A DNA stretch of 36,458 nt from a virus. The notes beneath the pieces are model-generated. The model saw nothing but the letters and a program-made list of their open reading frames with translations. It had not been told where the DNA came from and did no database searches. Of the stretch, positions 1 through 16,368 are shown piece by piece. Made by a program: the position numbers and the translations under genes. Numbering within the stretch: position 1 is the first letter of the stretch; every line of letters starts with the position of its first letter. The stretch covers positions 1 through 36,458 of the IMG/VR virus record IMGVR_UViG_3300031455_000102; one strand, given 5' to 3'.

Positions 1-576
1 CTACCGCTGCTCTCGTGGACGGTTGCGAGGCATGAGCGTGTCATAGATTTCGGACAGCGCGAGAGAAGCGCCGATCTCAGGCATGTCGATCACGCTTGCG
101 AGGTCATCGTATTTCTCGGCCCCCCACGCTCCTTCGCTATCGCGCCTGTAGAGCTTGACGAGGACGGTGCTCGGCTCGACGAACATGATGAGCCGAACCG
201 CGGGGTGTACCCGGTATTCGTCGAGCTTGTCGGTGGTGTCCACTGAACTCGTGCCGGGAGACGAGACCTCAACCACAAGTGTGGGGCTTTCGGCGACCAT
301 CGCGTCCGGGTCGGGAGGACCGCAGTCCACGACGATGTCGGGGTACCGAATGGTGTTTGCCAGCGTCTGGACGGCTGTGTCGCGTGAAGTCGTTCGGCAG
401 CCGCCAGACTTCGATTGCGGCCCCACCGAGGAAACGATGTTCGAAACGACGACGTTGTGGCCCTGCTTGGCGGCAGCCATCATCTCGATGACATAACCAT
501 CAACCAGCTCGAATCGACCCTCTTGGCTGAGGACCCACTCGAGGAAATCCTCCGCCGAGACACGTTTGTGTTCCAT
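1..576 (-). CDS. Uma2 family (DUF820) endonuclease-like protein
   Basis: A 191-aa protein that fits the Uma2/DUF820 family, which has a PD-(D/E)XK-type nuclease fold and is abundant as small cargo genes in bacteria. The N-terminal stretch SAEDFLEW...FELVDG is the usual opening. The core PDIVVDCG (about residues 79-86) followed by LVVEVSSPGT (about 101-110) gives the D...E-V pattern of the active site, and DTTDKLDEYR is the conserved helix after it. The length is normal for the family, the start is an ATG, and the stop codon lies exactly at the window edge. The biological role of Uma2 proteins is mostly unknown. It lies beside restriction genes, which may be a defence or accessory context. Confidence 0.85.
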   Translation of the reverse strand: MEHKRVSAEDFLEWVLSQEGRFELVDGYVIEMMAAAKQGHNVVVSNIVSSVGPQSKSGGCRTTSRDTAVQTLANTIRYPDIVVDCGPPDPDAMVAESPTLVVEVSSPGTSSVDTTDKLDEYRVHPAVRLIMFVEPSTVLVKLYRRDSEGAWGAEKYDDLASVIDMPEIGASLALSEIYDTLMPRNRPREQR

Positions 577-652
577 AGCTTGCTCCCTTCCGAATGGCGG
601 AAAACTGTCCCCAACCCGTGAAATCCGTCCTCACGGGGGCGAGCCGCGTGAA

Positions 653-1060
653 TTACGTCCCTGGCGGCCTCGGCGAGTTCGCCAGGACCTCCGCGATCTC
701 GTCCCGCATGATCCCGGCCGCTCCATCCGGATGCACTTCGACCTCCCGGACAAAGGCGTCGCTGTGATCGAGCGCGACCCACACGCACCCGAGGCGGATG
801 CGATCGACACCTTCTTCGACGGCCATCAGGACTTCCTCCGCGTCGGCCGTGTTCAACAAATCGAGCATCTGCTGATACGTGAGCACCCGGTTTTCCATGT
901 CGAGCGGAAGCCGGTCCCGATGCTGTCTCAGGGTCTCCCGCCACGGCCAGAAGCCGGACCGCACATCGTTCTTTTCGGGCTCGTCGAAATATTCGCCGGG
1001 CGTGGCCATGACGGCCCAGCCGATGCCTTTCTTACCGATCTGGAGAGCGATGGTGTTCAT
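653..1060 (-). CDS. Conserved-looking hypothetical protein, 135 aa
   Basis: I do not recognise this family. The reading frame is open further upstream, but that extension is rich in Arg, Gly and Pro and looks like translated non-coding DNA. I therefore start at the ATG at 1060 (MNTIALQIGKKGIGWAVMA). The protein is soluble and acidic, with a helix-rich middle (LTYQQMLDLLNTADAEEVLMAVEEG) and a C-terminal part rich in Val and Asp. The opening phrase, saying the protein is a working copy of a short beta hairpin, is only an impression. A terminator-like hairpin sits 36 bp upstream at 1096-1121, so the gene is probably transcribed independently of the restriction genes. It is followed after 76 bp by the Uma2 gene on the same strand. 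Confidence 0.6.
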   Translation of the reverse strand: MNTIALQIGKKGIGWAVMATPGEYFDEPEKNDVRSGFWPWRETLRQHRDRLPLDMENRVLTYQQMLDLLNTADAEEVLMAVEEGVDRIRLGCVWVALDHSDAFVREVEVHPDGAAGIMRDEIAEVLANSPRPPGT

Positions 1061-1360
1061 GGAGACAGCCTGCGGGTCGGCGACGAAAGACAAAACCCGG
1101 GAGAGCCGAAACCCTCCCGGGCGGCCACCGGTGAGGGGCCGTGGTTCGCCCTCTTTGGCCGACCTCGCGCCGCCGGATTCCAACCGACACCTGCCTTTCG
1201 GCTGCTCTCTCACGGCCCCAGGAGTTGCCTGACGGGGTTGCCCAGGGGGAGCCACCCCCGGTCGAGCTCAACGCGTCGGGAAGGAATGCGGCGCCATCAG
1301 GAAGGCGTCAAGGCTGCTTTCCTGCATGACTTGCCCGGCTTCCTTGTGCGAAAGGGCACA
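1061..1360. other. Non-coding gap between divergent genes
   Basis: This 300-bp gap lies between the - strand gene at 653-1060 and the + strand vsr gene. It holds one strong inverted repeat (listed separately at 1096-1121), one GANTC site (1176-1180) and no convincing ORF. It must contain the vsr promoter, but I cannot point to a good -35/-10 pair. Confidence 0.5.
1096..1121 (-). terminator. Rho-independent-type hairpin reading on the - strand
   Basis: There is an 8-bp perfect stem, CCCGGGAG (1096-1103) against CTCCCGGG (1114-1121), with a 10-nt loop. Read on the - strand the stem is followed by TTTTGTCTTT, a reasonable U-tract. It would stop - strand transcripts coming from the methyltransferase/restriction operon through the vsr region, insulating the gene at 653-1060. 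Confidence 0.6.
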
Positions 1361-1873
1361 ATGAGCAACATCGCGCCAGATGTCCGAAGCCGAATGATGG
1401 CGGCGGTGAAGGGCAAGGACACGAAGCCGGAGATGGCCGTCCGCAAAGGACTGCACGCGCTCGGCTTCCGCTACTCGCTTCATTCGTCGAAGTTTTCCGG
1501 CCGTCCGGACATGGCGCTGCCGAAACATCGGGCCGTGATCTGGATTCATGGCTGCTTCTGGCACGGACACGGTTGTCCCGCCTGCAGGCCGGCGCGCTCA
1601 AGGACGGAATTCTGGGGACCAAAGGTTGCCCGCACGAAAGAGCGCGATGCCGAAGCGCTGGCAGCCGTCCAGGCGAAGGGGTGGCGTTCCCTCGTCATAT
1701 GGGAGTGCGCTCTCGGCAAGGAGGATGCCGCGGAGACGGTATCGAGGGCGGCGGCGTGGCTGCGCGGGACGGACGAGGCCGCCGAGATTGAAGGCTATCC
1801 TTCCGGGTCTTCCGCCCCTTCGTCGACCTCGTCCTCAGGAGCGGCAAGCGGCACGGACTTGCCCGCGAAATAG
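1361..1873 (+). CDS. vsr: Very short patch repair endonuclease (Vsr)
   Basis: A 170-aa Vsr protein, a strand nicking enzyme that acts at T:G mismatches made by deamination of 5-methylcytosine. The family signature is complete: RSRMMAAVKGKDTKPEMAVRKGLHALGFRY, GRPDMALPKHRAVIW with the metal-binding Asp near residue 50, HGCFWHGHGC (61-72 region) with the conserved His residues, the FW..K....RD segment, and GWRSLVIWEC. I chose the ATG at 1361 because the recognisable domain begins at once and AAGGG lies 4 bp upstream. The last roughly 30 residues (Ser/Gly/Ala-rich) lie beyond the domain and overlap the 3' end of the restriction enzyme gene on the other strand by 79 bp. Partnership with a C5 methyltransferase is the usual context for vsr. 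Confidence 0.93.
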   Translation: MSNIAPDVRSRMMAAVKGKDTKPEMAVRKGLHALGFRYSLHSSKFSGRPDMALPKHRAVIWIHGCFWHGHGCPACRPARSRTEFWGPKVARTKERDAEALAAVQAKGWRSLVIWECALGKEDAAETVSRAAAWLRGTDEAAEIEGYPSGSSAPSSTSSSGAASGTDLPAK

Positions 1874-2469
1874 TCGCTCAGCCTTTGCTCGATTTCGGGG
1901 ACGGTCACCAGATTGTCCGGCAGGTTGTCGAACGCCTTACGGCCCTGGTGCAGCATGTCCCAGAAGGACTTCTTCTGGTCGGGTCTGCCCTTCCCGGGCG
2001 TGTTGTTGCCGATGCCGTCGATGAGCACGTTCCAGATCGGCTGGAAGAGCTGGATCATCATGCTCTCGCCGAGGGGAATCCACACGTCGTCGACAACGAT
2101 GGAGCGGAACCAGAAGGCTTCAGGATCGAGCGTCGTGGTGGCGGCATTTATCGAGCGCATGTGGTTGCGCAGCCTGTTCTTCAGCGCGCCGCCCTTCGAC
2201 GAGTCGAACATCATGCCGCCCTTGCGGGCACCCTCCGGGATGGCCTTGCCGACGTAGATCGGCTGCTCGAACGCTCCGTTGAGGTTCTTCGCTACGAGCG
2301 GCGCGTAGGGCGGGAAGCCCCCGGTGTAGTATATCGCGTAGATGCCCGCGCCCACGAGCTTCCCCGTCTCCTCACGGGTCAGCGGGGCAACCGGGACATC
2401 CAACAGGGCTTCGGCGATCGATCGGCCGAGATTGGATTTATCGAGGGGATTGTACGGGACCTGCGCCAT
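1795..2469 (-). CDS. Eco29kI-like GIY-YIG restriction endonuclease
   Basis: A 224-aa Type II restriction enzyme of the Eco29kI/NgoMIII group, whose known members cut CCGCGG. The GIY motif is at residues 42-44 (AGIYAIYYTGG) and the YVG motif at 72-74 (PIYVGKA). Then come LKNRLRNH with a candidate catalytic Arg near 101 and His 103, Glu near 135 (PLGESMMI), and Asn near 147 (PIWNVLID), matching the GIY-YIG catalytic set in order. The ATG at 2469 shares its A with the TGA of the methyltransferase, so the two are translationally coupled. The recognition sequence here is inferred from the family only; CCGCGG does occur in this window, for example near 1728 and 2813, so protection by the methyltransferase would be needed. 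Confidence 0.9.
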   Translation of the reverse strand: MAQVPYNPLDKSNLGRSIAEALLDVPVAPLTREETGKLVGAGIYAIYYTGGFPPYAPLVAKNLNGAFEQPIYVGKAIPEGARKGGMMFDSSKGGALKNRLRNHMRSINAATTTLDPEAFWFRSIVVDDVWIPLGESMMIQLFQPIWNVLIDGIGNNTPGKGRPDQKKSFWDMLHQGRKAFDNLPDNLVTVPEIEQRLSDYFAGKSVPLAAPEDEVDEGAEDPEG

Positions 2470-3638
2470 CAGGCCGCCGCCCTGCGGGACGGGAGGCGGA
2501 CCTTCGAAAAGATGTCCATCATGTAGCGCCCGAAGGATTCGGCAAGCTCGGCCGGGGCTGCGTTGCCGAGCTGGCGCATGTTCTCCGTCCACGGGCCGAC
2601 GAACTCGTAGTCGTCCGGCAGGCCCTGCAGGCGCGCGGCCTCGCGCACCGTGAAGTAGCGCACGGAGCCATCGGAGAAGGCCAGCGTGTTCTCGCCGCCC
2701 GGGACGCCGTGGACGCCTGCCTTGAGCGCCTTCGAGGGCTCGTCGGCGGGGCTGCCGGTGTGGCCCTTGTAGGACCTCGCGCCGGGCTGGTGGACGTGGT
2801 TCAGGACCTTCGAGCCGCGGACCGGATCGCCGAGTCCTTGAATGGCGTCTCTGACGGTGCGCCATGGCAGGGTCTCCGGCTCCTTGCCAGCGTGCCTCAG
2901 GGATTCGGCCCTGGCGTGGTCGGCCGCGCTGCCCGGCCCCGAGGGCTTCCGCATGCCGTGGCGCTTCCAGTACTCCCCCGTCACCCACTGGTCCCACAGG
3001 AGGCGTTCCCGGGAGTGCGTCTGCGGAGGGGGAGCGACGGCGTCGGCCATGTCCTTGCGCACGCCCATGAAAAGGACGCGGTGGCGCTTCTGCGCCGCGC
3101 CGTAGTCGGCGGCGTTCACCTTGACGACGGCGACGTGGTAGCTGCCCTCCGGCTCGTGCCTGCGCAGCCGCTCGAGGTGCGTGGCCCTGTCCTCGTCGTC
3201 GCGCTGGACGAGCATCGGCTCCTTCAGCGACAGCCTGATCCAGTCCAGGTGGTCTGAGAACTTCGGGCGCAGCAGGCCGCGCACGTTCTCGAAAAGGAAA
3301 CCCGCCGGGGCGACCTCGCGCACGGCGCGGACGGCCTCGGGCCACATGTCCCTGGCATCCTCCTCGCCCTTGTGCAGGCCTCCGATGGAGAAAGGCTGGC
3401 AGGGCGGCCCGCCGGCGACGAATTCCGCCTTGCCACGGAACGCGGTCCAGTCCACTTCGCGAACGTCCTCGGAATGGACCTTCCAGTGACCGACGTGCTC
3501 GATGTCACGGCCGATGTTGTGCCGGACGTTCTCGACCGAATGCCGATCCCGCTCGACCAGCAGCAGGTGTTCGAACCCCGCGCGGGCCAGACCCAGCGCG
3601 AGACCTCCGCACCCTGAAAACAGTTCGACACTACGCAC
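2469..3638 (-). CDS. dcm: DNA (cytosine-5-)-methyltransferase of the restriction system
   Basis: A 389-aa C5-cytosine methyltransferase, cognate to the downstream GIY-YIG enzyme. Motif I is FSGCGGLALGL (7-17), motif IV GGPPCQPFS with catalytic Cys 80, motif VI FENVRG (116-121) and motif VIII ADYGAAQKRHRVLFMG. A target-recognition region follows, then motif IX TVREAARLQGLPDDY and motif X QLGNAAP. The start is a GTG with GGGGAGAA upstream at good spacing; translation from it begins V/M-RSVELFSGCGG, immediately at motif I, so nothing further upstream is needed. The upstream region has three GANTC sites (3662, 3680, 3712). No controller (C) protein gene is visible. Confidence 0.95.
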   Translation of the reverse strand: MRSVELFSGCGGLALGLARAGFEHLLLVERDRHSVENVRHNIGRDIEHVGHWKVHSEDVREVDWTAFRGKAEFVAGGPPCQPFSIGGLHKGEEDARDMWPEAVRAVREVAPAGFLFENVRGLLRPKFSDHLDWIRLSLKEPMLVQRDDEDRATHLERLRRHEPEGSYHVAVVKVNAADYGAAQKRHRVLFMGVRKDMADAVAPPPQTHSRERLLWDQWVTGEYWKRHGMRKPSGPGSAADHARAESLRHAGKEPETLPWRTVRDAIQGLGDPVRGSKVLNHVHQPGARSYKGHTGSPADEPSKALKAGVHGVPGGENTLAFSDGSVRYFTVREAARLQGLPDDYEFVGPWTENMRQLGNAAPAELAESFGRYMMDIFSKVRLPSRRAAA

Positions 3639-3788: not shown

Positions 3789-4130
3789 TCAGCCCCGTCC
3801 CTTGGCTGCCGCGTACGCGTTGGCGGCCGGAACCGCCGCCGCGCGCTCGAGCGACGAATCCTTGATCGCCTCGAACCACGCGAGCTCGACCTCGCGCGCG
3901 GCGCGCCTCGGCGTCTCCTCGTATCCCGAGGTCCTCCCGGCCCGCGACACGAACGGCCCGTGCGCGTTCATGGCCCAGAACCAGTGCGTCTCGAGGGTTC
4001 CGGCCTTGCTGGATTCGTAGATGCGCCCGACGGAACCGTCGTAGCCCGGCGCCTCGGCGACGTAGTCGTTGTCCTTCCCGGACCACGTGTGCCGCCAGGA
4101 CAATCTCAGTTCGATCTCGTGGTCTTCCAT
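3789..4130 (-). CDS. Small hypothetical protein (WSG...GRIY...HWFW type)
   Basis: A 113-aa acidic soluble protein. The pattern of a short beta-rich start (IELRLSWRHTWSGKDNDYVAEAPGYDGSVGRIYES), an aromatic strand (THWFWAMNAHGPFVSRAGRT) and a C-terminal helix (REVELAWFEAI) resembles many small uncharacterised proteins of rhizobial-type genomes that end in a TxEEA...W helix. I cannot assign a function. No Shine-Dalgarno sequence precedes the ATG at 4130, so the start is less certain. It faces away from the HTH gene at 4253, and the 122-bp space between them should hold divergent promoters. Confidence 0.65.
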   Translation of the reverse strand: MEDHEIELRLSWRHTWSGKDNDYVAEAPGYDGSVGRIYESSKAGTLETHWFWAMNAHGPFVSRAGRTSGYEETPRRAAREVELAWFEAIKDSSLERAAAVPAANAYAAAKGRG

Positions 4131-4252
4131 GGCGGCGAGTCATAGCGCCATCATGAGAACAAATCAAGAACACCGTTGCGTTTCGGGCCGCCGGCGTTTG
4201 TGCGGGTCGCCGCCGGCGCTCACCATTCCTTCAGATGCGGGAGGAGCGCGGC

Positions 4253-5525: not shown

Positions 5526-6437
5526 ATGCGGGCGTTTTCATCCATGCCGGTCGCGGAGCGACTGGCGGATTCCATCAAGGCGAAGGCAAGAGCGAAGGGA
5601 GAGCGGCCGGACCGGGCCATGGTCCGCTACGTGCAGGAACGCGTAGCGTTCAGGCTGGCAGAGACGTTCCCCGGCCTCGTGGTCAAGGGGTCGTTCGCCG
5701 AGGTCGCGCGGAACCCGCCGGGTGCGCGTTTCGCTCCCGACCTCGACCTCTGGCTGCCGGAGAGGCCCGAGGACATGGACCTGCTGCTCGAGGACGTGTT
5801 CAGCCTCACCTACTACGACGAACGTGGTGCGATCGAGGACGGCATCGATGTCACCGAGGTTCGTTGGCAAGAGACGCACGCGCATCTGGAAGAACCCGGC
5901 ATGAAGTTCAGGCTGACGGTCAACGTCGGGAAGGTCCGCGTGCCGCTGAAGGTCGACTTCGCCTTCGGGCTCGGCCATGCCGACGGATACGAGACCGCCG
6001 TGCTGCCGTCCATGGTCCCCAGCTTCGGCGAGATATGGCTGCCGGTTCAGCCCGCCGCCCGCGCCGTCGCCGAGAAGCTGCACGCCATGGCCGAGTTCGG
6101 CGCGGCCAACACCAGGGTCAAGGATGTCTGGGACCTGCGTGCCCACCTGGTCCGCGATGGCGTCAACGTCGATGCCGTGGCCGTCGAGATCGCGAAGGTG
6201 TTCGCCGCCCGTGGCCGGGACGTGGACCCCGGCCTCGCCTGCCTGACGCGGGAGTGGGCCGAGGCCAACGAGGCCGCATGGACCCGCTGGCACGTAGAGG
6301 CCGGACTCCCGCTCGAGCGGTCCCTGACGGATGCAGTGGACGCGATCAGGCCGCCAGCGCGAGCCGCGCTGCTGGCCGCGGCGCGAACGCTGGACGCGGT
6401 GCCGGAGGCGGTCCCGCTTCCCGCGCCGGCGGCGTGA
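5526..6437 (+). CDS. AbiEii/AbiGii-like nucleotidyltransferase
   Basis: A 303-aa protein of the AbiEii (DUF1814) nucleotidyltransferase family, the toxin half of AbiE abortive-infection systems. The polymerase-beta-like active site is visible: VVKGS (52-56), then DLDLWL with the Asp pair at 72 and 74, and a third Asp at 144 in LKVDFAFG. The family's later motif AEKLHAM...RVKDVWDL (182-204) is well kept. The start ATG has GGAGGGG at good spacing. There is no recognisable AbiEi antitoxin next to it; the neighbours are the 64-aa and 107-aa unknown proteins. Family members known as toxins modify tRNA or GTP, but its substrate cannot be read from sequence. The 3' end overlaps the opposite-strand gene by 92 bp. 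Confidence 0.85.
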   Translation: MRAFSSMPVAERLADSIKAKARAKGERPDRAMVRYVQERVAFRLAETFPGLVVKGSFAEVARNPPGARFAPDLDLWLPERPEDMDLLLEDVFSLTYYDERGAIEDGIDVTEVRWQETHAHLEEPGMKFRLTVNVGKVRVPLKVDFAFGLGHADGYETAVLPSMVPSFGEIWLPVQPAARAVAEKLHAMAEFGAANTRVKDVWDLRAHLVRDGVNVDAVAVEIAKVFAARGRDVDPGLACLTREWAEANEAAWTRWHVEAGLPLERSLTDAVDAIRPPARAALLAAARTLDAVPEAVPLPAPAA

Positions 6438-7637: not shown

Positions 7638-7905
7638 GCTGGTCACTCCCGAGGCGGACCTGCGCCGCAGGAAGAAGGACTGGGGCCGCGCGAGGAAGCG
7701 CTGCCCCCTGTCGGCGGCGGAAGTCGCGCAACTCGTCGGCCGGTCCGAGGACACGGTCCGCAAGTACAACGCCCGAGGCGGACTGACGCCGCCGTGGGAG
7801 GTGATCCGCGCCGTGGAGGAATGGAACCTCAGGCAGGCGATCGACATCTTCGGCGAGGCGTTCGGCGAGGATGCCATCACCTTGGTCACGGGGGCGGCGG
7901 CATGA
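7630..7905 (+). CDS. Small HTH protein, 91 aa
   Basis: A 91-aa basic protein with a helix-turn-helix-like core, LSAAEVAQLVGRSEDTVRKYNARGGLTPPWEVIRAVEEW (about 26-63), similar to short phage regulators and excisionase-like proteins. It starts at an ATG overlapping the previous gene by 8 bp and ends in an ATGA overlap with the methyltransferase gene. A role in regulating the operon or in DNA binding is inferred from the HTH only. Confidence 0.65.
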   Translation: MGRLVTPEADLRRRKKDWGRARKRCPLSAAEVAQLVGRSEDTVRKYNARGGLTPPWEVIRAVEEWNLRQAIDIFGEAFGEDAITLVTGAAA

Positions 7906-9143
7906 GGGTGCTGTCCACTTTCAGCGGCATCAGCGCCGCCAGCGTCGCGTGGAAGCCGCTGGGTTTCGAGTTCGTGGGCTATTGCGAACCCGAACCGCTG
8001 CCGTGCCACGTGCTCAACGCGCGGCTCGGCGCGACGGCGCCGATCTACCTGCCGGACGGCTTCCGGCGTTCGAACTACAAGCACCTGAACGGCGGGAGCA
8101 TCCCGAACTTCGGGGACATCGAGCAGATCAGCGACCGCGACCTTCGCGCGCTGGGTCCCGTGGATGTCCTCGAGGGCGGCAGCCCCTGCCAGGACTTCTC
8201 GGTCGCGGGGCTGCGCATGGGGCTGAAGGGCGAACGGGGCAACCTGACGCTCGAGTTCCTGCGACTCGCGATGCGGATGAAGAAGATCAACAACCTGAAA
8301 TACGTGGTCTGGGAGAACGTGGATGGGGTCAGGTCCGACGAAACGAACGCCTTCGGGAAGCTCCTTTCAGCGCTGGTCGGAGGACCCGAGCGTGGTGTGG
8401 TCGCTTCAGGAAGGGGATGGAGCCGGGGATGGACCAGTGCAGGTCACGCTGCTGGACCGGACGGAGAGGTGGCGTGGCGGATCATGGACGCACAGGGCTG
8501 GGGAGTTCCCCAGCGTCGCCGTCGCGTCTTTGTTGTCGGACGTCTTGGAGCCGGACCCGTCTGCCCTGGAGAAGTACTTTTTGACCCGCGAGGCGAAGGA
8601 TGGGGTGCTGAACCGGGCGGCGAAGCGTGCCGAGACACGTGGGAAGGGCCTGCCGGAGATGCTGGAGGCGGCGCTGCGGGCGGACTAGGTCCCATCGCCT
8701 TCATGGCCGGTCAGGGAGCGAAGGCCGGGTCGGTGGCCGCATCGGTCGACTTCTCGCCGACGCTCCGGTCCGCCGAAAGCGGATCGAACCGGACCCCCTG
8801 CGTGGCCTACTTCGATCGCCAAGGCGTGGACCGCTACGGGGATGCGGAAACCCAGGCATCGACGCTTCGGGCTTGCGAGAGCGCGGCCTACGAGACCGAC
8901 CTCGTGGTCTATCCCGACGCACTGAAACCCGTCGTGCGCCGCCTGACGCCGCTGGAATGCGAGAGGTTGCAGGGCTTCCCCGACCTGTGGAGCGAGGTCG
9001 GCTACAAAGGGAAAAACCGTCCGCCGGACGCGCCCCGCTACCGGGCGCTCGGGAACAGCATGGCCGTCCCCTGCATGGCGCATATCGGGCGTGGACTGTT
9101 GCGGGAAGACGCGGCGGCGCGGAAGGCGGCGCTGGCCGCCTAG
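7902..9143 (+). CDS. dcm: Phage-type DNA (cytosine-5-)-methyltransferase
   Basis: A 413-aa C5-cytosine methyltransferase of the orphan phage type, distinct from the one at 2469-3638. Motif I is FSGISAASVAW (7-17), with a Ser/Ala variant of the usual glycine-rich loop. Motif IV is GGSPCQDFS with catalytic Cys 96, motif VI WENVDG (137-142), motif VIII DAQGWGVPQRRRRVFVVG, motif IX LTPLECERLQGFPDLW and motif X YRALGNSMAVP. No restriction enzyme gene accompanies it, so self-protection or anti-restriction is the likely role. A separate +1-frame ORF (8323-8688) lies wholly inside it. It is the last gene of the + strand operon; its stop is 13 bp from the stop of the convergent spanin gene. Confidence 0.93.
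   Translation: MRVLSTFSGISAASVAWKPLGFEFVGYCEPEPLPCHVLNARLGATAPIYLPDGFRRSNYKHLNGGSIPNFGDIEQISDRDLRALGPVDVLEGGSPCQDFSVAGLRMGLKGERGNLTLEFLRLAMRMKKINNLKYVVWENVDGVRSDETNAFGKLLSALVGGPERGVVASGRGWSRGWTSAGHAAGPDGEVAWRIMDAQGWGVPQRRRRVFVVGRLGAGPVCPGEVLFDPRGEGWGAEPGGEACRDTWEGPAGDAGGGAAGGLGPIAFMAGQGAKAGSVAASVDFSPTLRSAESGSNRTPCVAYFDRQGVDRYGDAETQASTLRACESAAYETDLVVYPDALKPVVRRLTPLECERLQGFPDLWSEVGYKGKNRPPDAPRYRALGNSMAVPCMAHIGRGLLREDAAARKAALAA
8323..8688 (+). CDS. Overlapping ORF inside the methyltransferase gene (+1 frame)
   Basis: A 121-aa ORF read in the +1 frame within the methyltransferase gene. Its C-terminal half contains EFPSVAVASLLSDVLEP, then KYFLTREAKDGVLNRAAKR and a closing RGKGLPEMLEAALRAD. From memory, small phage proteins share the pattern (S)LS.ILE....KY.LS..A..GILRRA..RGK.LP..L..AL, often next to or overlapping Dcm-type genes, so this may be a true dual-coded gene. 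The methyltransferase frame is also clearly real here, since it carries motif VIII. The ATG at 8323 has GGGAG about 10 bases upstream, so it could be translated, but no expression evidence exists in the sequence. Function unknown. Confidence 0.55.
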   Translation: MGSGPTKRTPSGSSFQRWSEDPSVVWSLQEGDGAGDGPVQVTLLDRTERWRGGSWTHRAGEFPSVAVASLLSDVLEPDPSALEKYFLTREAKDGVLNRAAKRAETRGKGLPEMLEAALRAD

Positions 9144-9156
9144 AAAAAGAAAGCGC

Positions 9157-9357
9157 TCACGGGTTCCACCCGCAGGCGGACTGGCCGTAGCGGTTGTGCG
9201 CGACGATCTGGGTCGCCAGCGAATTCGAGAGCACCGGCACGTCGGCCACGGCTGGCCGGATCGGCCTGAAGCCGTCGCAGCCGCCGCTACTCGTGGCGCA
9301 CCCAGCGAGCAAGCTCGTCGCGAACGCGAGGGTCAGGAGTCGCGGCCACTTCGTCAT
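9157..9357 (-). CDS. Rz1-like outer-membrane spanin lipoprotein
   Basis: A 66-aa lipoprotein. The signal peptide MTKWPRLLTLAFATSLLAGC has a lipobox LLAGC with the acylated Cys at residue 20, followed by TSSGGCDGFRPIRPAV. Small size, lipobox and partial out-of-frame overlap with the upstream Rz-like gene (9287-9357 shared) are the classic o-spanin arrangement. With the Rz-like protein it would fuse inner and outer membranes at the last step of lysis. It is the last gene of the late - strand series and converges on the methyltransferase gene with only 13 bp between the stop codons. Confidence 0.8.
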   Translation of the reverse strand: MTKWPRLLTLAFATSLLAGCATSSGGCDGFRPIRPAVADVPVLSNSLATQIVAHNRYGQSACGWNP

Positions 9358-9535
9358 CGATGCGGTTCCTTTCGCGCAGGTTCTCCAGGTCCTGCTCCTG
9401 CTGTTTCGCGCGCTCGGCATCCCGTCCCGCGTCATGGACGCGCCACAGGAAGGCGAGGATCACCGCCGCGACACCGACCCATTTGGCGACGGCGCGGCCG
9501 GTGGACGTCCAGAGCCATGCGAGGAAGGCGCTCAT
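9287..9535 (-). CDS. Rz-like inner-membrane spanin
   Basis: An 82-aa protein with one N-terminal membrane segment (AVAKWVGVAAVILAFLW, about 15-31) and then a charged helical region (RDAERAKQQEQDLENLRERNRIDDEVAA) that would extend into the periplasm. Size, topology, position after the holin and overlap with the lipoprotein gene in another frame match an i-spanin. The ATG at 9535 overlaps the stop of the holin gene (ATGA), so I prefer it over the longer open frame. The C-terminal VRDELARWVRHE is a typical Rz-like ending. Confidence 0.8.
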   Translation of the reverse strand: MSAFLAWLWTSTGRAVAKWVGVAAVILAFLWRVHDAGRDAERAKQQEQDLENLRERNRIDDEVAATPDPRVRDELARWVRHE

Positions 9536-9720
9536 TCTTCGCCGCCCCCGGTCTTGCGGCGCTGGCGCTTGTTGTGGACGGACCACAGCACAGACGCGAT
9601 GGTGACCACGGCGCCTGCGATGGTCGCCACGTCGTCGACGCTGAAGTCGGACGTGCCGAGGACGCTGACCCCGATTGCGGTAAGGGCGTGCCGGGCCAGC
9701 CCGGCGATGATCTCAGCCAT
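9532..9720 (-). CDS. Pam3-gp28-type phage holin
   Basis: A 62-aa membrane protein resembling the Pam3-gp28 putative holin family. It opens MAEIIAGLARHALTAIGVSVLG, the family's RHALTA start, then VDDVATIAGAVVTIASVLWSVHNKRQRRK, a second membrane helix ending in a basic tail. Two membrane segments and about 60 residues are usual. It sits between the endolysin and the spanins, with an 8-bp overlap to the endolysin and a 4-bp ATGA overlap to the Rz-like gene, so the lysis genes are translated as one unit. Its role would be to open the inner membrane at the time of lysis. Confidence 0.8.
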   Translation of the reverse strand: MAEIIAGLARHALTAIGVSVLGTSDFSVDDVATIAGAVVTIASVLWSVHNKRQRRKTGGGEE

Positions 9721-10519
9721 TTGCGACCTCCTGCGCGACGTTGGCGTAAGCCCGGGCGCGCTCACGGTTGACCCGGGACTTGTGGATGAGGACGACGGCC
9801 AGGACGACGAGCGCCACGGCCGCGCCGGCGGCGATCCACGGCATGACGGAATCCAACGTCGAGATGTCGAACTGCGAGGCCGAGCCCGCGCTGCCCGCTC
9901 CGGACGCCACCGCCGTGCCTTCCTGTGCGTGGGCCTTGCCCTCGGCCTTCGAGGACTCCGCCTTGAGTTCGCTGGGGACCGAAGCTTTCGGAAGATCCTT
10001 TGCCAGCGCCATCGAGACGGCCTTGGCCTCGGTCCCGGTGACCCGGCGCAGCCAGCCTTTCCCAAAGGTGGACCAGTGCGACAGGGCCTTCAGGAAGCCC
10101 AGCCGGTGCGCGCACATCGAGACGATGACCTTGCGCTGGTCGGAGGCGTTGGCGGCTCCGACGGTCTTCGGCCCGGCCACGCCGTCCTGCGAGACGCCCA
10201 ACGCCTTCTGGAGCCATTTGACCCCTCGGGACGGTCCCGAGTTCACCCCGCCGTCGAAGGTGGCGAGGTCGATGCCCGCCGGAAGCGCGTCGCCGCTGAC
10301 CTTGTTCCAGTAGTCGCGGCGGTAGATTTCCTGCAGCTCGGGATCGGTGATGTTGCGGACGCTGCGCAGCGGCAGGCCCTTCGACCTGCGGTAGGCGTCG
10401 TAGGTGCGCTGGATCACGCCCTTCATGGTGGCCCCGCCGGGGTCCTTGGGGTGGTTGGCCCATCCCCCTTCATGCTCGAGCACGATGGCCAGACAGGCCG
10501 CGTAGTTGCCAGCCGCCAT
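9713..10519 (-). CDS. GH108-family endolysin (N-acetylmuramidase) with C-terminal membrane anchor
   Basis: A 268-aa endolysin. The glycosyl hydrolase 108 domain occupies about 6-95, with the EGGW motif at 17-20 (catalytic Glu 17), followed by the peptidoglycan-binding region GVNSGPSRGVKWLQKALGVSQDG to about 165. After a Lys/Ala/Gly-rich linker (175-215) comes a hydrophobic helix at about 227-246 (PWIAAGAAVALVVLAVVLI) and a basic tail. The C-terminal membrane helix is uncommon among classical soluble endolysins and suggests the enzyme is held at the inner membrane until lysis. The octamer AAGGATTC occurs upstream (10540-10547, - strand). Start ATG at 10519; the Shine-Dalgarno is only moderate (GGGAGCGGCCC). 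Confidence 0.88.
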   Translation of the reverse strand: MAAGNYAACLAIVLEHEGGWANHPKDPGGATMKGVIQRTYDAYRRSKGLPLRSVRNITDPELQEIYRRDYWNKVSGDALPAGIDLATFDGGVNSGPSRGVKWLQKALGVSQDGVAGPKTVGAANASDQRKVIVSMCAHRLGFLKALSHWSTFGKGWLRRVTGTEAKAVSMALAKDLPKASVPSELKAESSKAEGKAHAQEGTAVASGAGSAGSASQFDISTLDSVMPWIAAGAAVALVVLAVVLIHKSRVNRERARAYANVAQEVANG

Positions 10520-10555: not shown

Positions 10556-10584
10556 AGCGTCAGGCGCCGGCTGGAGAGGGACAA
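10556..10584. repeat. 29-bp imperfect direct repeat, copy 1
   Basis: Matches 13439-13467 in 26 of 29 positions, in the same orientation. This copy overlaps the last codons and the stop of the phosphoesterase gene. The core GCGCCGGCTGG is identical in both copies, followed after one variable base by GAGGGACAA. The two copies bracket 2.85 kb holding three genes that are not standard structural genes. Confidence 0.8.
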
Positions 10585-12200
10585 GGATCCGGCAGGTCGG
10601 CGGTGGCGCGGTGGCGTCCGTCCGAGGCCATCAGGACGAGCGCGCGGTGCCCGCCGTGGTACTGGACGACGTGGGCGTGCGCGTCGGTCGTCCAGCCGTC
10701 GTTGTAGCCCTGGTAGATTTCACCCGTCGTCCCCGCCACGTAGACGCCCTCGCAGGCCCATGGCGTGTGCGGGTGGTCGAGCGTGATCCTGCCGCCGTGC
10801 TTCCGGAACTGCGCCGGCGAACCGGGGCTGCCCTTGATCCCCTTGTCGGAATGGACGCCTAGCTCCACCCCGTCGATGACGCAGGAGCGGTCCCGGTAGC
10901 GGAACTCGACATCGTCGGCGAGGCCAGCCTCCCGCAGCGCGTGCTCGACGATGCGGGTCTCCCGCCACGCGCCGCGCGTCTCCCTGATGCGGGAGTGCAT
11001 GACGGCGTTGAGGCGGTGATAGTAGTAGGCGTTCTCGGGGTCGGAACGACCCTTCGAGTCCTTCAGCCACTTCACCAGCTTGCGCTCGTGATTGCCTTCC
11101 TTGAGGTGGACGCGGGTCCAGTCCCGCCTGCACATGTTGACGAACCCGGCCGCGGCGGCGATCTCGGCCTCGATGTTGCCGCGTCCGGCGTGGAAGGACT
11201 GCGCCATCCGGACCGGGTCGGAGATGACGTGAGTGTTGCGGTCCCCGAAATGCACGAGGTCCGAGAAGAACTGGTCCTCCGGCTGGAGCGTGTCCAGCAG
11301 GCTGTCGCCGCCGACGACGGCGTGCGCGGCCCGGTCGTAGCCGAAGCTGGCGATGCCGATGGCGCGCTGCATGATGGCGTGGTGCGCATCACCCCAGGTC
11401 ACCGCGCGGACGCGGCGGCCCCCGTGGACACGTCCGTCGGCGACGAACTCGTCGAGACACTGAAAGCTGCCGTCCCCGTAGGCGCTGATCTGGTGGAAGA
11501 AGCACTCGCCGTCGGCGTCGACCTCGATGAGCAGCGCGCCGAGCGCGTGGTGCTGGAGCGCCTTCACCGAGGCATCCACGGCGGGAAACGTCACCGCCCC
11601 GGTGGACACGGCGTAGCGCGGCGGCGCGTCCAGCATTCGGGGGATCGACTGCAGGGCGAAGCGTGGATGCGCCACGACGACGTGCTGGCCGCGGTTGGCG
11701 GAGACGTGGTCCTTCAGCGGCTCGACGGCATCGGCGTTGCCGCCGTGGCCGACGAACAGGAGGCTGTCGTTGAGCCTCACCCGGTCGGGGCAGAAATAGG
11801 GCCGCAGTTCCCCGGGGCACTGGCGGGCGTGCTTGGGGTCGCCGCCGACGAAGAACTCGGCGCGCTTGTGGGCGGCGAAGGCCCACAGGTTGTCGAGGAA
11901 GGGGACCGGCAGCGGTCCCCAGCCAGCCATGCCGACCACGAACCTCTGGACCGTTCCCTTCGGCACGGAGGCGTCCAGTTCCCGCACGTGCGCCCACGCG
12001 GGGGACGAGACAGGGCTGGAACCGGACAACGCCGCGGTCACCGCCTCCTTCTTCAGCGTACCGACTATCCCCTTCGAGATGGACAGCCGCCTCGCGATCG
12101 TCCTCTCGGGAAGGCCCCGTGCGGCCAGCGTCCCGACGCGCTCGACGAGATAGCCGCGCTCCGCGTCCTCGAAGCGCCTGCCCCTTTTCCCCGCCATCAT
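10560..12200 (-). CDS. Calcineurin/Mre11-type metallophosphoesterase with N-terminal HTH
   Basis: A protein of about 546 aa. The N-terminus (RFEDAERGYLVERVGTL..IARRLSISKGIVGTLKKE) looks like a helix-turn-helix. The C-terminal two thirds has the metallophosphoesterase motif series in the right order: D-x-H in TWGDAHHA (Asp 271), GDSLLD (298-303), GNHE (369-372), a lone His in LGVHSDKG (about 450) and HxH in LDHPHTP (about 476-478). The fold covers Mre11-type nucleases and phosphatases. In size and layout it recalls the phage T5 pre-early DNase A1, but that is from memory. The start is one of three close ATGs (12227, 12200, 12197); AGGGGG favours 12200 or 12197. It is not a standard structural or lysis gene and sits in the cargo segment. 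Confidence 0.75.
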   Translation of the reverse strand: MMAGKRGRRFEDAERGYLVERVGTLAARGLPERTIARRLSISKGIVGTLKKEAVTAALSGSSPVSSPAWAHVRELDASVPKGTVQRFVVGMAGWGPLPVPFLDNLWAFAAHKRAEFFVGGDPKHARQCPGELRPYFCPDRVRLNDSLLFVGHGGNADAVEPLKDHVSANRGQHVVVAHPRFALQSIPRMLDAPPRYAVSTGAVTFPAVDASVKALQHHALGALLIEVDADGECFFHQISAYGDGSFQCLDEFVADGRVHGGRRVRAVTWGDAHHAIMQRAIGIASFGYDRAAHAVVGGDSLLDTLQPEDQFFSDLVHFGDRNTHVISDPVRMAQSFHAGRGNIEAEIAAAAGFVNMCRRDWTRVHLKEGNHERKLVKWLKDSKGRSDPENAYYYHRLNAVMHSRIRETRGAWRETRIVEHALREAGLADDVEFRYRDRSCVIDGVELGVHSDKGIKGSPGSPAQFRKHGGRITLDHPHTPWACEGVYVAGTTGEIYQGYNDGWTTDAHAHVVQYHGGHRALVLMASDGRHRATADLPDPCPSPAGA

Positions 12201-12227
12201 GCCCCCTGCAGTCACGTTTCCCAGCAT

Positions 12228-12408
12228 TTCCGGCCTGATCGTGCGGGGCTCGGGGGTCAGGAATCAAATCGCCTGGACAAGCGTGTTGACGCCGCCTGCG
12301 GATGTCTGCGGTGCCTCGAATCCTGCCGGCGGAATCCGCGTCGCAAGGATTCAGGAAATCCGCGGTCCCGTGCTATTCCGGTCCCCGCAGCGGCAGGAGG
12401 CTCGGGAC
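12228..12408. promoter_or_regulatory. Divergent promoter region with four GANTC sites
   Basis: This region of about 180 bp lies between the phosphoesterase gene and the DUF2971 gene, which point away from each other. Four GANTC sites fall within 92 bp: 12261-12265, 12318-12322, 12332-12336 and 12348-12352, the last inside an AAGGATTC octamer. At this base composition I would expect about 0.3 in 92 bp (rough estimate). Confidence 0.5.
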
Positions 12409-13128
12409 ATGGCGACGCGGACGAAGAAGGGGAAGGAACAGCTGATCTGGAGGTACACGTCGATCCCGGGAGTGATCGACACGCTGCGGAGACGCCAGCT
12501 TTCCCTGCTCGACCCGCAGGCCTGGGACGACCGCAACGACCGCCATTTCATGCTGCTCTACAAGGAGCGCCGGAAGGCGAACAGCATGTACGCGATGTGC
12601 GCAGCCATGTGTCCCGAGACCTACCACCACTGGCGGGTCTTCACGGGCATAGGGAGCGGCGGGGCCTGCATTGTCCTGCACCGCGAGCCGCTGGAGGACC
12701 GCCTCCGCAACGTCGGCCTCCCCAACGGCGACCGCGTGCGCTGCGGCGAGGTCGAATATCTTTCGTTGAAGGGGACGCAGGACCTCGACCCGACGGACAT
12801 GAACCGGCTCCCGTTCCTGAAGCGTGTCGGGTTCCAGGACGAGGACGAGTACCGGATCGTCGTGGAGTCCTCGGAGGACCAGCGCGGGGCCTACCCGGTC
12901 GACTGCCCGATCGCGTGGATCGACCGCATCTACCTGAACCCCTGGCTGCCGACATCCGTCGCGGACAGCGTCATCGACACCCTTCTCGACCTCGATGGCT
13001 GCGGCAAGCTGGACATCAGGCACTCGCGCCTGATCGACAGTTCGACGTGGAAGAAGGCCGGCGACCGGGTCGCGGGCAAGGATGCCGAGGGGAAGCGAAG
13101 CTCAACGAGGCGCGGGACGCGGCGCTAG
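12409..13128 (+). CDS. DUF2971 family protein
   Basis: A 239-aa protein of the DUF2971 type: an opening WRYTSIPGVIDTLRRRQLSLLDPQAWDDRNDRHF (the family's 'relics of a window of loading' of small N-terminal motifs Y-S/T...L...l..s.p..fND is recognisable), then HHWRVFTGIGSGGACIVLHR, a Y-x-S strand (EVEYLS), and IVVESSEDQ. The ATG at 12409 has AGGAGG 9 bases upstream. Function is unproven; DUF2971 genes are frequent cargo in phages and genomic islands. It is the only + strand gene within the late - strand series, and its stop codon overlaps the stop of the opposing gene at the shared CTAG (13125-13128). The C-terminal 20 residues are basic. Confidence 0.75.
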   Translation: MATRTKKGKEQLIWRYTSIPGVIDTLRRRQLSLLDPQAWDDRNDRHFMLLYKERRKANSMYAMCAAMCPETYHHWRVFTGIGSGGACIVLHREPLEDRLRNVGLPNGDRVRCGEVEYLSLKGTQDLDPTDMNRLPFLKRVGFQDEDEYRIVVESSEDQRGAYPVDCPIAWIDRIYLNPWLPTSVADSVIDTLLDLDGCGKLDIRHSRLIDSSTWKKAGDRVAGKDAEGKRSSTRRGTRR

Positions 13129-13391
13129 AGGCCGAGGTACCTGTGGACTGCGGCGTAGGCCACCGGCGACAGGAGCGTCAGGAGGGCGAGCCCACCCGCC
13201 ACGAAACGGCCGTTGCCGAAGCTGCGCTGTTCGAGGTCGTCCAGGCGTCCGTCATGTTCGTCGATCTTCTTCTTCATCGACTGCTGCTCGATGATGAAGA
13301 TGTCGAGCTTGGAGTCGATGCTGGACACCTTCTTGCCCGTCGAGATGATCTCCTGGACGAGCACGGTGTTGGAGATCGGGGTGTCGGTCAT
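13125..13391 (-). CDS. Coiled-coil protein with C-terminal membrane helix
   Basis: An 88-aa protein. Residues 10-55 form a coiled coil (VQEIISTGKKVSSIDSKLDIFIIEQQSMKKKIDEHDGRLDDLEQ), followed by one membrane helix at about 63-80 (FVAGGLALLTLLSPVAYAAV) and a short tail. This layout is that of XhlA-type hemolysin or holin accessory proteins and of other small phage membrane proteins. The ATG at 13391 is the first good start; the open frame upstream reads through the 29-bp repeat and is not convincing. It lies between the receptor-region tail gene and the DUF2971 gene. A lysis-accessory role is an inference. Confidence 0.65.
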   Translation of the reverse strand: MTDTPISNTVLVQEIISTGKKVSSIDSKLDIFIIEQQSMKKKIDEHDGRLDDLEQRSFGNGRFVAGGLALLTLLSPVAYAAVHRYLGL

Positions 13392-13438
13392 TCGTCGGGC
13401 TTTCGGGAAGTGATGTTCAGGCGTTTGACGTGTCAGAC

Positions 13439-13467
13439 AGCGTCCCGCGCCGGCTGGCGAGGGACAA
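13439..13467. repeat. 29-bp imperfect direct repeat, copy 2
   Basis: Second copy of the repeat at 10556-10584 (3 mismatches, same orientation), here in the 82-bp gap just after the stop of the tail-region gene at 13474. See copy 1. Confidence 0.8.
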
Positions 13468-13473
13468 TTCCGC

Positions 13474-14049
13474 TTACGCGCCTTCGAGGGCGGCAAGCCT
13501 CGTCTCCAGGTCGGCGACGGTGTCGTTCAGGTCGGCGACCTGCGTCGTGAGCCAGTTGTTCTGGCTCTTGGCCTGCGCGAGGTGGTACTCGAGTTCCTCG
13601 AGCGCGGCCTGCACGTTCCCGGTCTCCACGAGCCCGAAGATGGTCGGAACCGCCACCTCCACGTCTGCGGCGGTTCCGCCGCCCCCGCCACCCAGCGGCA
13701 GCCAGAACCCGTTGTCGAGGTCGTCGTAGAACTCCTCGCCGGACTGGTGAGGGATCACGCACAGGTACGTCACGCCCTCGTGGCTGACGAGCGAGCGGTT
13801 GGTGTAGGGGTTGCCCTCGCTCCACGCTCCGGCGTTCAGGAACGGCGCGGGCAGCGGGATCTCGGCCATCGGGTTGCCGTCGGTGCCGATGGCGATCAGG
13901 TTCGCCCCGTCTCCGGAGATCACGAAGCCCGCGAGCCGGACGAAGCCGCCGGCCATGTCGTCGTAGGCTCCCTTGATCGCGTTCCAGTTGGCGTCGACCT
14001 CGGCGGCCGTCAGCGGCCGATCGAGCGCGGCGTAGGTGTTCAGGTCCAT
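13474..14049 (-). CDS. Phage tail-tip or fibre protein with CBM-like motif and coiled coil
   Basis: A 191-aa protein. It starts MDLNTYAALDRPLTAAEVDANWNA, the short opening often seen in phage tail-fibre and receptor-region proteins. In the middle, AWSEGNPYTNRSLVSHEGVTYLCV (about 100-123) matches the W...Y..GS-V...G..Y.C pattern of carbohydrate-binding type 5/12-like repeats found in phage tails. After a Gly-rich linker (GGGGGG) the last 55 residues form a coiled coil (ALEELEYHLAQAKS...DLETRLAALEGA), suited to trimer formation. GGAGGAGACTGAC precedes the ATG. Position after the tail genes supports a host-binding role; the exact receptor cannot be seen. Confidence 0.7.
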   Translation of the reverse strand: MDLNTYAALDRPLTAAEVDANWNAIKGAYDDMAGGFVRLAGFVISGDGANLIAIGTDGNPMAEIPLPAPFLNAGAWSEGNPYTNRSLVSHEGVTYLCVIPHQSGEEFYDDLDNGFWLPLGGGGGGTAADVEVAVPTIFGLVETGNVQAALEELEYHLAQAKSQNNWLTTQVADLNDTVADLETRLAALEGA

Positions 14050-14050
14050 G

Positions 14051-14449
14051 TCAGTCTCCTCCATGCGAGGGGGAAGCGCCATCGAAACCGAAGCTGGTCG
14101 CGCCCATCCCGTCCTGCGGCGTCGGGGTGTAGTGGTGGTTGCCCTCGCCATCGTACCAGCCGACGGCATCCAGGGTATGGACCACCCAGCCGGAGCCGGG
14201 GTGCCCCGTGGGGAAATACCAGGAGACGATCGGGTGGCCGTGGACGGGATCGGCGGTCGGCGTGTCGCCGAATCCGGGGATGCCCTCGGAACTGGACAGA
14301 TGGGCCCACTGCGGGTCCGCCATGGCCTGGCCCACGCGTTCGGCCTCGCCGGGGTTTGCGCCGCCGTTCCAGCGGACGACGGAGCGCACGCCCTCGTTCC
14401 ACGTCAACGGACGGAAGCCCGACATCGAGGCGGAGAACGGGTTCTTCAT
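14051..14449 (-). CDS. Hypothetical tail-region protein
   Basis: A 132-aa soluble protein rich in Gly, Trp, His and Pro (WYFPTGHPGSGWVVHTLDAVGWYDGEGNHHYTPTP). I do not recognise it. It lies 1 bp from the next gene and 2 bp from the preceding one in the late operon, so it is almost surely transcribed with the tail genes and may be a minor tail or receptor-binding component. The ATG at 14449 was chosen because it directly follows the large tail gene; the in-frame region upstream lies inside that gene. Confidence 0.6.
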   Translation of the reverse strand: MKNPFSASMSGFRPLTWNEGVRSVVRWNGGANPGEAERVGQAMADPQWAHLSSSEGIPGFGDTPTADPVHGHPIVSWYFPTGHPGSGWVVHTLDAVGWYDGEGNHHYTPTPQDGMGATSFGFDGASPSHGGD

Positions 14450-14451
14450 GG

Positions 14452-16368
14452 TCAGGCTCCGAGGTCGATGCCGCGCGGACCCGTCGCGACTGCGCACGCC
14501 GCCGACAGCTTCCGTTCCAGCATGTCGTGCGAGGCGAGCGACCGTAGGGCCACTTCGTAGGAAGTCTTTGGGACGCCGTCGCGAAGGTCCAGCGTCTGCC
14601 TGCTGCGCTCGCGGGCGTAGGCGAGCTGCTGCTGCAGCAGGTTCTTCCAGACCACCCTCGTCACCGCGTAGCTCGGGACATGGAGCCTCTCGACGAGGAC
14701 CGGCTTACGGATCGCGTCCGCCTGGATCAGCATGGCCACGCCGGTCCCCTCGTGGGTGTATCCGTCCTCGGAGGGAACGTAGGCGTAGCCGTCGGCGAAT
14801 GCTTCGCTGTAGGAGGTGTTGCCGGGCAGCGCAGGTGCCGCGTCGCCGGTGGCGAGCGACACGCCGAGGGTGACCTCGACGAAGCGCATCTGTTTCTCGC
14901 CCGTCCAGTGCTTGCGGTAGGCGATGACCTTCCCGGTGCACTCGCCGCCGGGGAAGCTGGGGTGCTCGATGCGGACCGAGTCCTTGAGCGTGACGTCTCC
15001 GAGGTCTTCCCAAACCCCCCTGAACTTCACCTCGACGCAGCGCATGCGCCTGCGGAGGAAGGCGTTGAGGCGCAGGGCCATATGCTCGGCCGCCTCGTTG
15101 CCGCGGCCGGTGTCGAGGAAGGAGTACGCCTCCCTGCTCTTCAGCGCGCCGCCGCCCAGATGCGGGACGGCGACCCACTGGACGAGAACGCTGACGCTGC
15201 CCTGCGAAGCGCTGGACCGGGAGATGAAGATGGCCTTGCGGTCCGTCGGCACCACGGTGAACGTCCCGGTGCTGCAGTGGTCGAGGCGGCACTGCCAGAC
15301 CTGACCCTTGTAGCGGACCAGGTCGCCCCACTCGTAGTCCTTGTCCGCTTCCCATTCCGGGATGGATGCCAGCGGGTCGTCATGCACCGGGGACACCGAG
15401 AACTCGCCGATGTGCTCCTCGCGGTCGGCGGTGCCGATGACCGCCTGGACCCCGGCTTCCATGGTGAGCGCCATCGTCTCGCGACGCGGCTGGACGTAGT
15501 CCCAGGACGCGAACATGCGTTCGGCCTTGAGCTTCCAGTAGAGGAGCGAGCGCTGGCGGTGCATCAGCTTCGTCTGGGTCTGCGGCGGGTTGCCGTATTT
15601 CACCAGCCAGACGTATTGGCTCTCGCCGTCGTAGAAGTGCTCGCGGGTCGCGTATGGCGTGCCCGGCGTGAAGGACGCGTCGTCCACGGTCCAGCCGCTG
15701 TTCGAGCCGAAGCCGCCGTGGTCGCCGAGCGAGGTCACGTCCGGCGTGAGGGTCTTGATCTCGTGCGGCGTGATCCTCTGCGAAATCTCCACCCGGCCCG
15801 TGGAGGTCTGCTCGAACTCCGCCACCAGCGTGGCGGTGGCCTTCTTCAGCGGATGGCCCTTGCTGTTCACGGCGATCGAGGACACGTCGTAGTGCCCGCC
15901 GAGGTCGATGACGCGGTCGCCCACCAGCACGTCAGAGAGCGTGATCTCGTGCGTGACGGGATGGACGTGGAAGTGCGCGGCGCGCGTTTCCAGCACCTCG
16001 GCCGGGTCACGCGGGACGCCGTCCTCGGACCGGGGGAAGAAGAGCACGTCGAAATACGGCCGTTCCCGCAGGCCGTCCGCGAACTCGGCCAGCTTGGCGG
16101 GAAAGTCGTCCGGCTGCGCGAGGAACTCGACCTTGACCGTGGAGCGGGCGAGGTTCGACGGCACGGAGTTGACCACGCCGGAAAAGATCGCGCCGTGGCC
16201 CGGCACCGTAAGCGTGCCGCGCTGGTTCACGCCGGTGAGCACCGGGCCGATGCCGGGATTGCCGACGGATGTCTCAAGGATGGCCGCCTCGCCCTCGCTC
16301 TGCGACACGTCGAACTCGGTGACGACGTAGCCTGCGCCCCACGAAAAGGTGACGGGTTCCTGGGCCAT
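14452..16368 (-). CDS. Large distal tail protein (baseplate/tail-hub or tip candidate)
   Basis: A 638-aa protein placed second after the tape measure, where siphoviruses encode the distal tail or tip. It is beta-rich for most of its length. A segment at about 343-370 (IPEWEADKDYEWGDLVRYKGQVWQCR) matches the W...Y..GD-V...G..W.C pattern of carbohydrate-binding type 5/12-like modules, similar to the shorter copy in the protein at 13474-14049. The C-terminal part, LQQQLAYARERSRQTLDLRDGVP, is helical. I do not recognise a named family, so the function is inferred from position, size and the possible sugar-binding motif. Confidence 0.65.
   Translation of the reverse strand: MAQEPVTFSWGAGYVVTEFDVSQSEGEAAILETSVGNPGIGPVLTGVNQRGTLTVPGHGAIFSGVVNSVPSNLARSTVKVEFLAQPDDFPAKLAEFADGLRERPYFDVLFFPRSEDGVPRDPAEVLETRAAHFHVHPVTHEITLSDVLVGDRVIDLGGHYDVSSIAVNSKGHPLKKATATLVAEFEQTSTGRVEISQRITPHEIKTLTPDVTSLGDHGGFGSNSGWTVDDASFTPGTPYATREHFYDGESQYVWLVKYGNPPQTQTKLMHRQRSLLYWKLKAERMFASWDYVQPRRETMALTMEAGVQAVIGTADREEHIGEFSVSPVHDDPLASIPEWEADKDYEWGDLVRYKGQVWQCRLDHCSTGTFTVVPTDRKAIFISRSSASQGSVSVLVQWVAVPHLGGGALKSREAYSFLDTGRGNEAAEHMALRLNAFLRRRMRCVEVKFRGVWEDLGDVTLKDSVRIEHPSFPGGECTGKVIAYRKHWTGEKQMRFVEVTLGVSLATGDAAPALPGNTSYSEAFADGYAYVPSEDGYTHEGTGVAMLIQADAIRKPVLVERLHVPSYAVTRVVWKNLLQQQLAYARERSRQTLDLRDGVPKTSYEVALRSLASHDMLERKLSAACAVATGPRGIDLGA

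Follow-up and report, generated by a model that had tools for sequence, protein, structure and literature searches.

Does a pair of short direct repeats in the late region of a phage mark the borders of an exchangeable cargo cassette? The question is raised by a 36,458-base virus record (IMG/VR record IMGVR_UViG_3300031455_000102, positions 1 to 36,458; hereafter the window), whose late genes lie on the minus strand. A preliminary description had reported a 29-bp direct repeat around a 2.85-kb segment between a tail-fibre-like gene and the endolysin gene, and had interpreted the three genes of this segment as non-standard cargo bounded by an exchange site. Our comparisons suggest that this interval is probably an ordinary variable slot of the late region, in which the A1-like gene, with a gene for a small membrane protein upstream, looks like standing content and one inverted DUF2971-like gene looks like a passenger that most likely did not enter through the repeats. 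Exchange or mobility mediated by the repeats is not supported by the sequences that we compared.

The gene order of the interval could be read directly. The tail-fibre-like gene (13474-14052, minus strand) is followed by a gene for an 88-residue protein with a C-terminal hydrophobic segment (13125-13391, minus strand), the inverted DUF2971-like gene (12409-13128, plus strand), an open reading frame (ORF) related to the A1 gene of phage T5 (10560-12203, minus strand, with a start at 12203 or 12227) and the endolysin gene (9713-10519, minus strand). The fibre label is based on the place of the gene and on a CBM_5_12 match (PF02839; E = 1e-6), and this gene has matches in the three relatives that could be compared at the interval. 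These relatives are L004 and L086, which form one lineage (87-99% identical across the eight proteins compared), and L084, a distant, prophage-like locus of Devosia nitrariae. Three other entries were not counted as further relatives (L085 and L087 are the L004 record and L088 is the L086 record).

We observed that both L004 and L086 present the same order: a tail protein similar to a 638-residue protein of the window, a small gene, the fibre gene, a gene for an 89-residue membrane protein, the A1-like gene (43% identity), the endolysin gene (48%) and the holin gene. Neither repeat copy is present in these two genomes. Because an A1-like gene stands between fibre and endolysin in both of them without either copy, this gene looks like standing late content of the phage group. 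The 43% identity between the A1-like proteins of the window and L004, measured over 481 positions, suggests that the gene has long been at this place. The DUF2971-like gene was found in none of the L004 and L086 records and the Devosia genome (0/3; search without a positive control), and it lies well inside the repeats rather than at their edges. In L084, the interval between fibre and endolysin contains an inverted ORF of 1285 residues with a Prim-Pol domain (11159-15016, minus strand; E = 1.7e-10) together with small ORFs, and neither an A1-like gene nor a membrane gene of the window's type was matched there. The interval is thus variable between phages, and it varies without this repeat, since L084 fills it with the inverted Prim-Pol gene.

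These relatives were obtained from several searches. An endolysin scan, of which we considered the best 80 of 185 relatives, identified only L004 as having other genes in common with the window within the stretches examined. L086 and L084 came from scans with two-row alignments, including one of the 638-residue tail-region protein, and L004 and L086 were found again. Single-sequence scans of IMG/VR contigs with the A1-like, the 638-residue and the tape-measure proteins, which need exact short peptide matches, returned no close relatives. A terminase scan yielded one 5-kb fragment (L083, 81%) that ends short of the site, and a DNA search of named phages yielded eight records, which matched in endolysin-type genes only. 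The 638-residue protein had no match among named phages or in PHROG, and "tail tip" is a label given to it by place. Finally, the endolysin was not found in five of the genomes with A1-like or DUF2971-like genes (0/5; search without a positive control).

The preliminary description had labelled the gene next to the endolysin a metallophosphoesterase with a helix-turn-helix domain. Neither label was backed by the profile searches: metallophosphoesterase models of Pfam and NCBIfam gave no match at E = 0.1, and the helix-turn-helix match (PF22943; E = 0.005) fell below its cut-off (17 of 27 bits). The 555-residue protein matches PHROG 1745 ("DNA transfer protein") over residues 108-535 of 555 (E = 8.1e-95), and the members of this family in named phages are annotated as A1 or A1-like. 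Relatives of the protein were found in 1121 of the 50,697 named phage records. The AlphaFold model is of low confidence (mean pLDDT 36.8; residues 21-60 at 67-73). Outside named phages, homologues (L092 to L094) were found in 3 of 385 sampled genomes; for one of them (L092, 1504-3108, minus strand), from the same bacterial class as the Devosia strain, the reported match contains a single TGA. Passages of two papers present A1 of T5 as a known host-takeover protein, tied to the degradation of host DNA as well as to host RNA polymerase (PMC3556154, PMC13250531). The profile match covers most of the window protein. The setting differs from that of T5: a passage of one of these papers places the T5 gene in pre-early terminal-repeat DNA (PMC3556154), whereas the gene of the window adjoins the endolysin gene. 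The two ends of the window have no identical repeat of 10-59 bases in common, and the record may be a fragment.

The inverted gene between the A1-like and membrane-protein genes is the one credible moron, or passenger, among the three genes according to the comparison with relatives. Its protein matches the PADLOC family PDC-S31 over most of its length (E = 3.4e-11; residues 6-210 of 239; profile positions 10-235 of 245), and this family belongs to the PADLOC set of "phage defence candidates". The name DUF2971 that it had received was borne out in part: the gene is indeed inverted and the other three of four aligned family members match Pfam DUF2971 (best E = 7.5e-6), but the window protein itself does not match this model (PF11185) at E = 1. 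Four PDC-S31 models each match three of the four aligned members. Homologues were identified in 3 of 289 sampled genomes from the class of the Devosia strain, and the other ORFs of these three loci (3.6 kb each), named by eye, do not resemble phage genes. The window protein is encoded in a phage record, whereas the three homologues found come from bacterial genomes, possibly from prophages within them; a search of named phages returned no match to it. Because of the PDC-S31 match, a defence role is suggested, and the gene is a candidate for a stand-alone defence gene that would most likely protect the host cell against other phages. The literature that we searched yielded no description of the function of DUF2971, no papers on PDC-S31 and none on DUF2971 together with phage.

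The same gene may instead be a late host-modifying or counter-defence gene, as its position in the late region and the lack of a described DUF2971 function in the literature searched would allow. However, it runs opposite to the late genes, its homologues lie in loci that look non-phage by eye, and its family is one of the PADLOC defence candidates. We consider this alternative doubtful, with a defence gene being the better supported reading. The preliminary description had tentatively proposed anti-phage or host-takeover cargo. The defence-family match and the host-takeover role of T5 A1 agree with parts of that proposal, but the anti-phage reading applies to only one gene of the three.

A moron is a single extra gene in a phage late operon, as in lambdoid phages. 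The DUF2971-like gene resembles morons as a single, inverted gene with a late gene on either side, which was not seen in the relatives and may benefit the host cell. It differs in that neither a promoter nor a terminator of its own was found and in that its composition is phage-like. The gene would have been set between the A1-like and membrane-protein genes, its stop codon overlapping that of the membrane-protein gene. We observed that these two genes are convergent and that their stop codons have CTAG in common (13125-13128). Entry would most likely have occurred by homology-independent recombination at a gene junction rather than through the 29-bp repeats; the flanks of the gene (12200-12420 and 13091-13200) have no 9-mer in common.

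We further analyzed the repeat itself. The two copies (10556-10584 and 13439-13467) are in direct orientation and identical at 26 of 29 positions, exactly as first described. No other direct pair of 29-mers in the window agrees at 26 or more positions, and no inverted pair reaches this level. When up to three mismatches are allowed, the 19-base core of the repeat occurs only at these two sites (0.11 expected). The similarity ends sharply on both sides, since the 20 bases flanking the copies match at only 5/20 and 4/20 positions, and among the 171 pairs formed from the gene-end regions of 19 minus-strand genes it ranks first (score 44, against 28 for the runner-up). Permuting codons within 600-base blocks and counting direct pairs only, we found a pair as good in 2 of 100 shuffles. 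This number has to be read knowing that the preliminary description was free to choose any feature of the sequence. The repeat is therefore unusual relative to shuffles, yet not far beyond chance, and it probably, but not certainly, exceeds it.

The positions of the copies are informative. Copy 2 is non-coding and lies between the stop codon of the fibre gene (13474-13476) and the small membrane-protein gene, starting 6 bases beyond that stop codon. In copy 1, 25 of the 29 bases (10560-10584, minus strand) encode the last residues and the stop codon of the A1-like ORF. Read in the frame of this ORF, two of the three differences between the copies leave the encoded residue unchanged, and the third lies within the stop codon. 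That copy 1 runs through the end of the A1-like gene makes it a poor fit to the end of a cassette.

If the copies were recombination borders, the 2.85-kb segment would enter or leave as a block between them. The pair is indeed the best in the window and brackets the segment, and the Devosia locus differs in the same interval. However, the relatives have most of the segment without the repeats, and copy 1 lies almost entirely within the A1-like ORF. The perfect runs of the pair are 6, 11 and 9 bases, and an identity of 11 bases is short for RecA-type recombination. In addition, general profile searches of the proteins of the segment did not recognize any recombinase. Aligning relatives at the interval had been proposed as a check of the exchange: neither a single-copy empty site nor other cargo between two copies was seen in L004, L086 or L084, although so few relatives make this a weak test. 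Across the six loci tested, neither copy had a match better than 18-19 of 29, a level reached in 19 to 100 of 100 mononucleotide shuffles, which are a simple test of chance. The exact core had no match in the other IMG/VR contigs scanned, a search that may leave out genomes nearly identical to that of the window. Segments kept without repeats and a repeat absent elsewhere come close to what the preliminary description had itself named as evidence against the exchange. Block recombination between the copies thus appears highly improbable, and the variable gene lies well inside the supposed borders.

The resemblance of the two copies is most likely due to chance, or to a short duplication within the region that plays no part in mobility. 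After these, the next best idea is a shared regulatory site: the copies would be a duplicated regulatory or RNA-processing site ahead of the membrane-protein and A1-like genes, on the one hand, and of the endolysin, holin and spanin genes, on the other, separating the expression of lysis from that of the tail. Each copy is indeed just upstream of late genes. In addition, the window, L004 and L086 all have the motif TTGTC[C/T]CTCGCC behind the stop codon of the fibre gene (51 and 36 of 2000 mononucleotide shuffles were as good, L004 and L086 not being independent), and the sequence TTGTCTCTCGCC after the fibre gene would be the putative site in L004-type phage. On the minus strand, copy 2 can form a hairpin (GTCCC-T-CGCC-AGCC-GGCG-C-GGGAC) of 5 + 4 pairs, with a folding energy of -20.1 kcal/mol (z = -2.0; 6 of 200 shuffles as stable; 51-base stretch). 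However, the three mismatches to copy 1 all lie within the stem, the whole 83-base junction folds no better than expected (z = -0.1), and neither do the junctions of L004 and L086 relative to shuffles (z = -0.3 and 1.7). The similarity between fibre end and A1 end is inconsistent as well, ranking 2nd of 66 junction pairs in L086 and 14th of 66 in L085 (the L004 record). No promoter-like or terminator-like site was detected there, the window contains no Rfam family, and the hairpin was rejected as an intrinsic terminator since the terminator scan called none at this position. A shared regulatory site is therefore unlikely, although less improbable than block recombination.

Several observations weigh against the reading of standing content plus one passenger. 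Only one related lineage (L004/L086) and one distant locus were found, and consequently loss of the DUF2971-like gene in the L004/L086 lineage could also account for its distribution; a gain in the window is the direction that we favor. The DUF2971-like gene does not appear foreign by base composition, as its GC-content (0.661) and its GC-content at third codon positions (0.917) are within the range of the 23 listed genes, itself included. A consensus scan limited to sigma-70-type sites found no promoter-like site upstream of the gene, and the same scan found no plus-strand terminator-like site behind it; expression of its own would have to be assumed. Finally, the membrane proteins of the window and of L004 are not detectably homologous (575 of 1000 shuffles as good).

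This last point limits what can be said of the small membrane-protein gene. The 88-residue protein of the window has a single C-terminal hydrophobic segment of 19 residues starting at residue 64, which agrees with the membrane part of its earlier description as a coiled-coil membrane protein. The proteins of the window and L004 have the same place, length and build, and differ in sequence. In the absence of detectable homology, they are the same gene by place and build only, and we regard the window gene as a positional counterpart of the L004 gene rather than a demonstrated homologue. The idea of three non-standard genes is accordingly reduced to one passenger, next to an A1-like gene that looks like standing late content and a membrane gene with a counterpart by place. 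Among the pairings scored, the best partner of the window protein is a Rhizobium phage protein encoded five genes from A1 (score 45; 2 of 1000 shuffles as good). We rejected the window protein as a homologue of XhlA (E = 0.15) and found no acceptable relative of it in named phages (best E = 0.8).

The position of this gene raises a side question, namely whether the late A1-like protein and the small membrane protein encoded upstream of it act as a functional pair that recurs in unrelated phages. Such a pair could be a membrane-tethered late version of T5 A1 that clears host DNA or alters transcription shortly before lysis. According to passages of the phiCbK paper, A1 of T5 is found in the membrane fraction, and the sole first-step-transfer gene for a predicted membrane protein adjoins A1 (PMC3556154). 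We found that the L004 membrane protein (3960-4229) is homologous to a protein of cyanophage Pan1 (L097, 5667-5930; score 84, a value reached by 0 of 1000 shuffles). The near-copy in L086 excluded, the L004 protein scored 21-29 in its eight other pairings. In L004/L086 and in Pan1, the membrane gene immediately precedes A1 within different sets of phage genes, the neighbours in Pan1 being head and tail genes. The window and R5C each have a protein of similar length and build nearby, without clear homology, located one gene further upstream in R5C and beyond the DUF2971-like gene in the window. Against this pairing, searching the whole collection with the L004 protein gave no match up to E = 1, so that even Pan1 was missed, and the window protein resembles the Rhizobium phage protein more than the proteins of Pan1 or L004. 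In a hand-picked set of 16 named phages, 3 of 32 positions next to A1 (offset 1) were occupied by small membrane genes, compared with 4 of 31 for offset 2 and 8 of 90 for offsets 3-5. They are no commoner beside A1 than further off, and we rejected the idea that such pairing is general. Inspection by eye of small membrane ORFs around the A1 homologues L092-L094 gave no convincing case. A functional pair is at present a rather unlikely proposition, which we retain as a lead.

Downstream of the interval, the late genes continue with a holin of the Phage_holin_10 family (9532-9720, minus strand; PF23987; E = 3.3e-9), which is the matched in-frame part of the ORF 9532-10065, and with overlapping Rz and Rz1-like spanin ORFs (9157-9586, minus strand; 9287-9586 and 9157-9435). 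The endolysin itself presents Glyco_hydro_108 and PG_binding_3 domains (PF05838; E = 1.1e-27). Beside the spanin genes lies a second cytosine-5 DNA methylase gene (7794-9143, plus strand), whose best PADLOC model is an orphan methyltransferase. Towards its left end, which may be phage or flanking host DNA, the window also carries other defence-type genes. An AbiEii-type nucleotidyltransferase toxin gene is located at 5526-6437 (plus strand; Pfam E = 1.3e-17; PADLOC E = 4.7e-28). At the left end (1-3638), a Uma2-type gene, Vsr, an Eco29kI-type restriction enzyme and a cytosine-5 methylase make up a type II restriction-modification set with Vsr, which may be phage cargo or flanking host DNA. A search of solved structures returned a single match (E = 0.34), and no tRNA genes were found in the window.

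Overall, our results point to ordinary phage mosaicism with one candidate defence moron and two leads. Tempting as that reading is, two repeats that bracket non-structural genes should not be taken as evidence for a cassette before related phages have shown which parts of the segment vary. Two features stay of interest, namely a candidate defence gene located among the late genes of a phage and an A1-like gene in late position, whose product may have a membrane partner. Since the sources cited above, as far as their passages go, link A1 to both host-DNA degradation and host RNA polymerase, how such a late A1-like protein may act on the host is a fair question.

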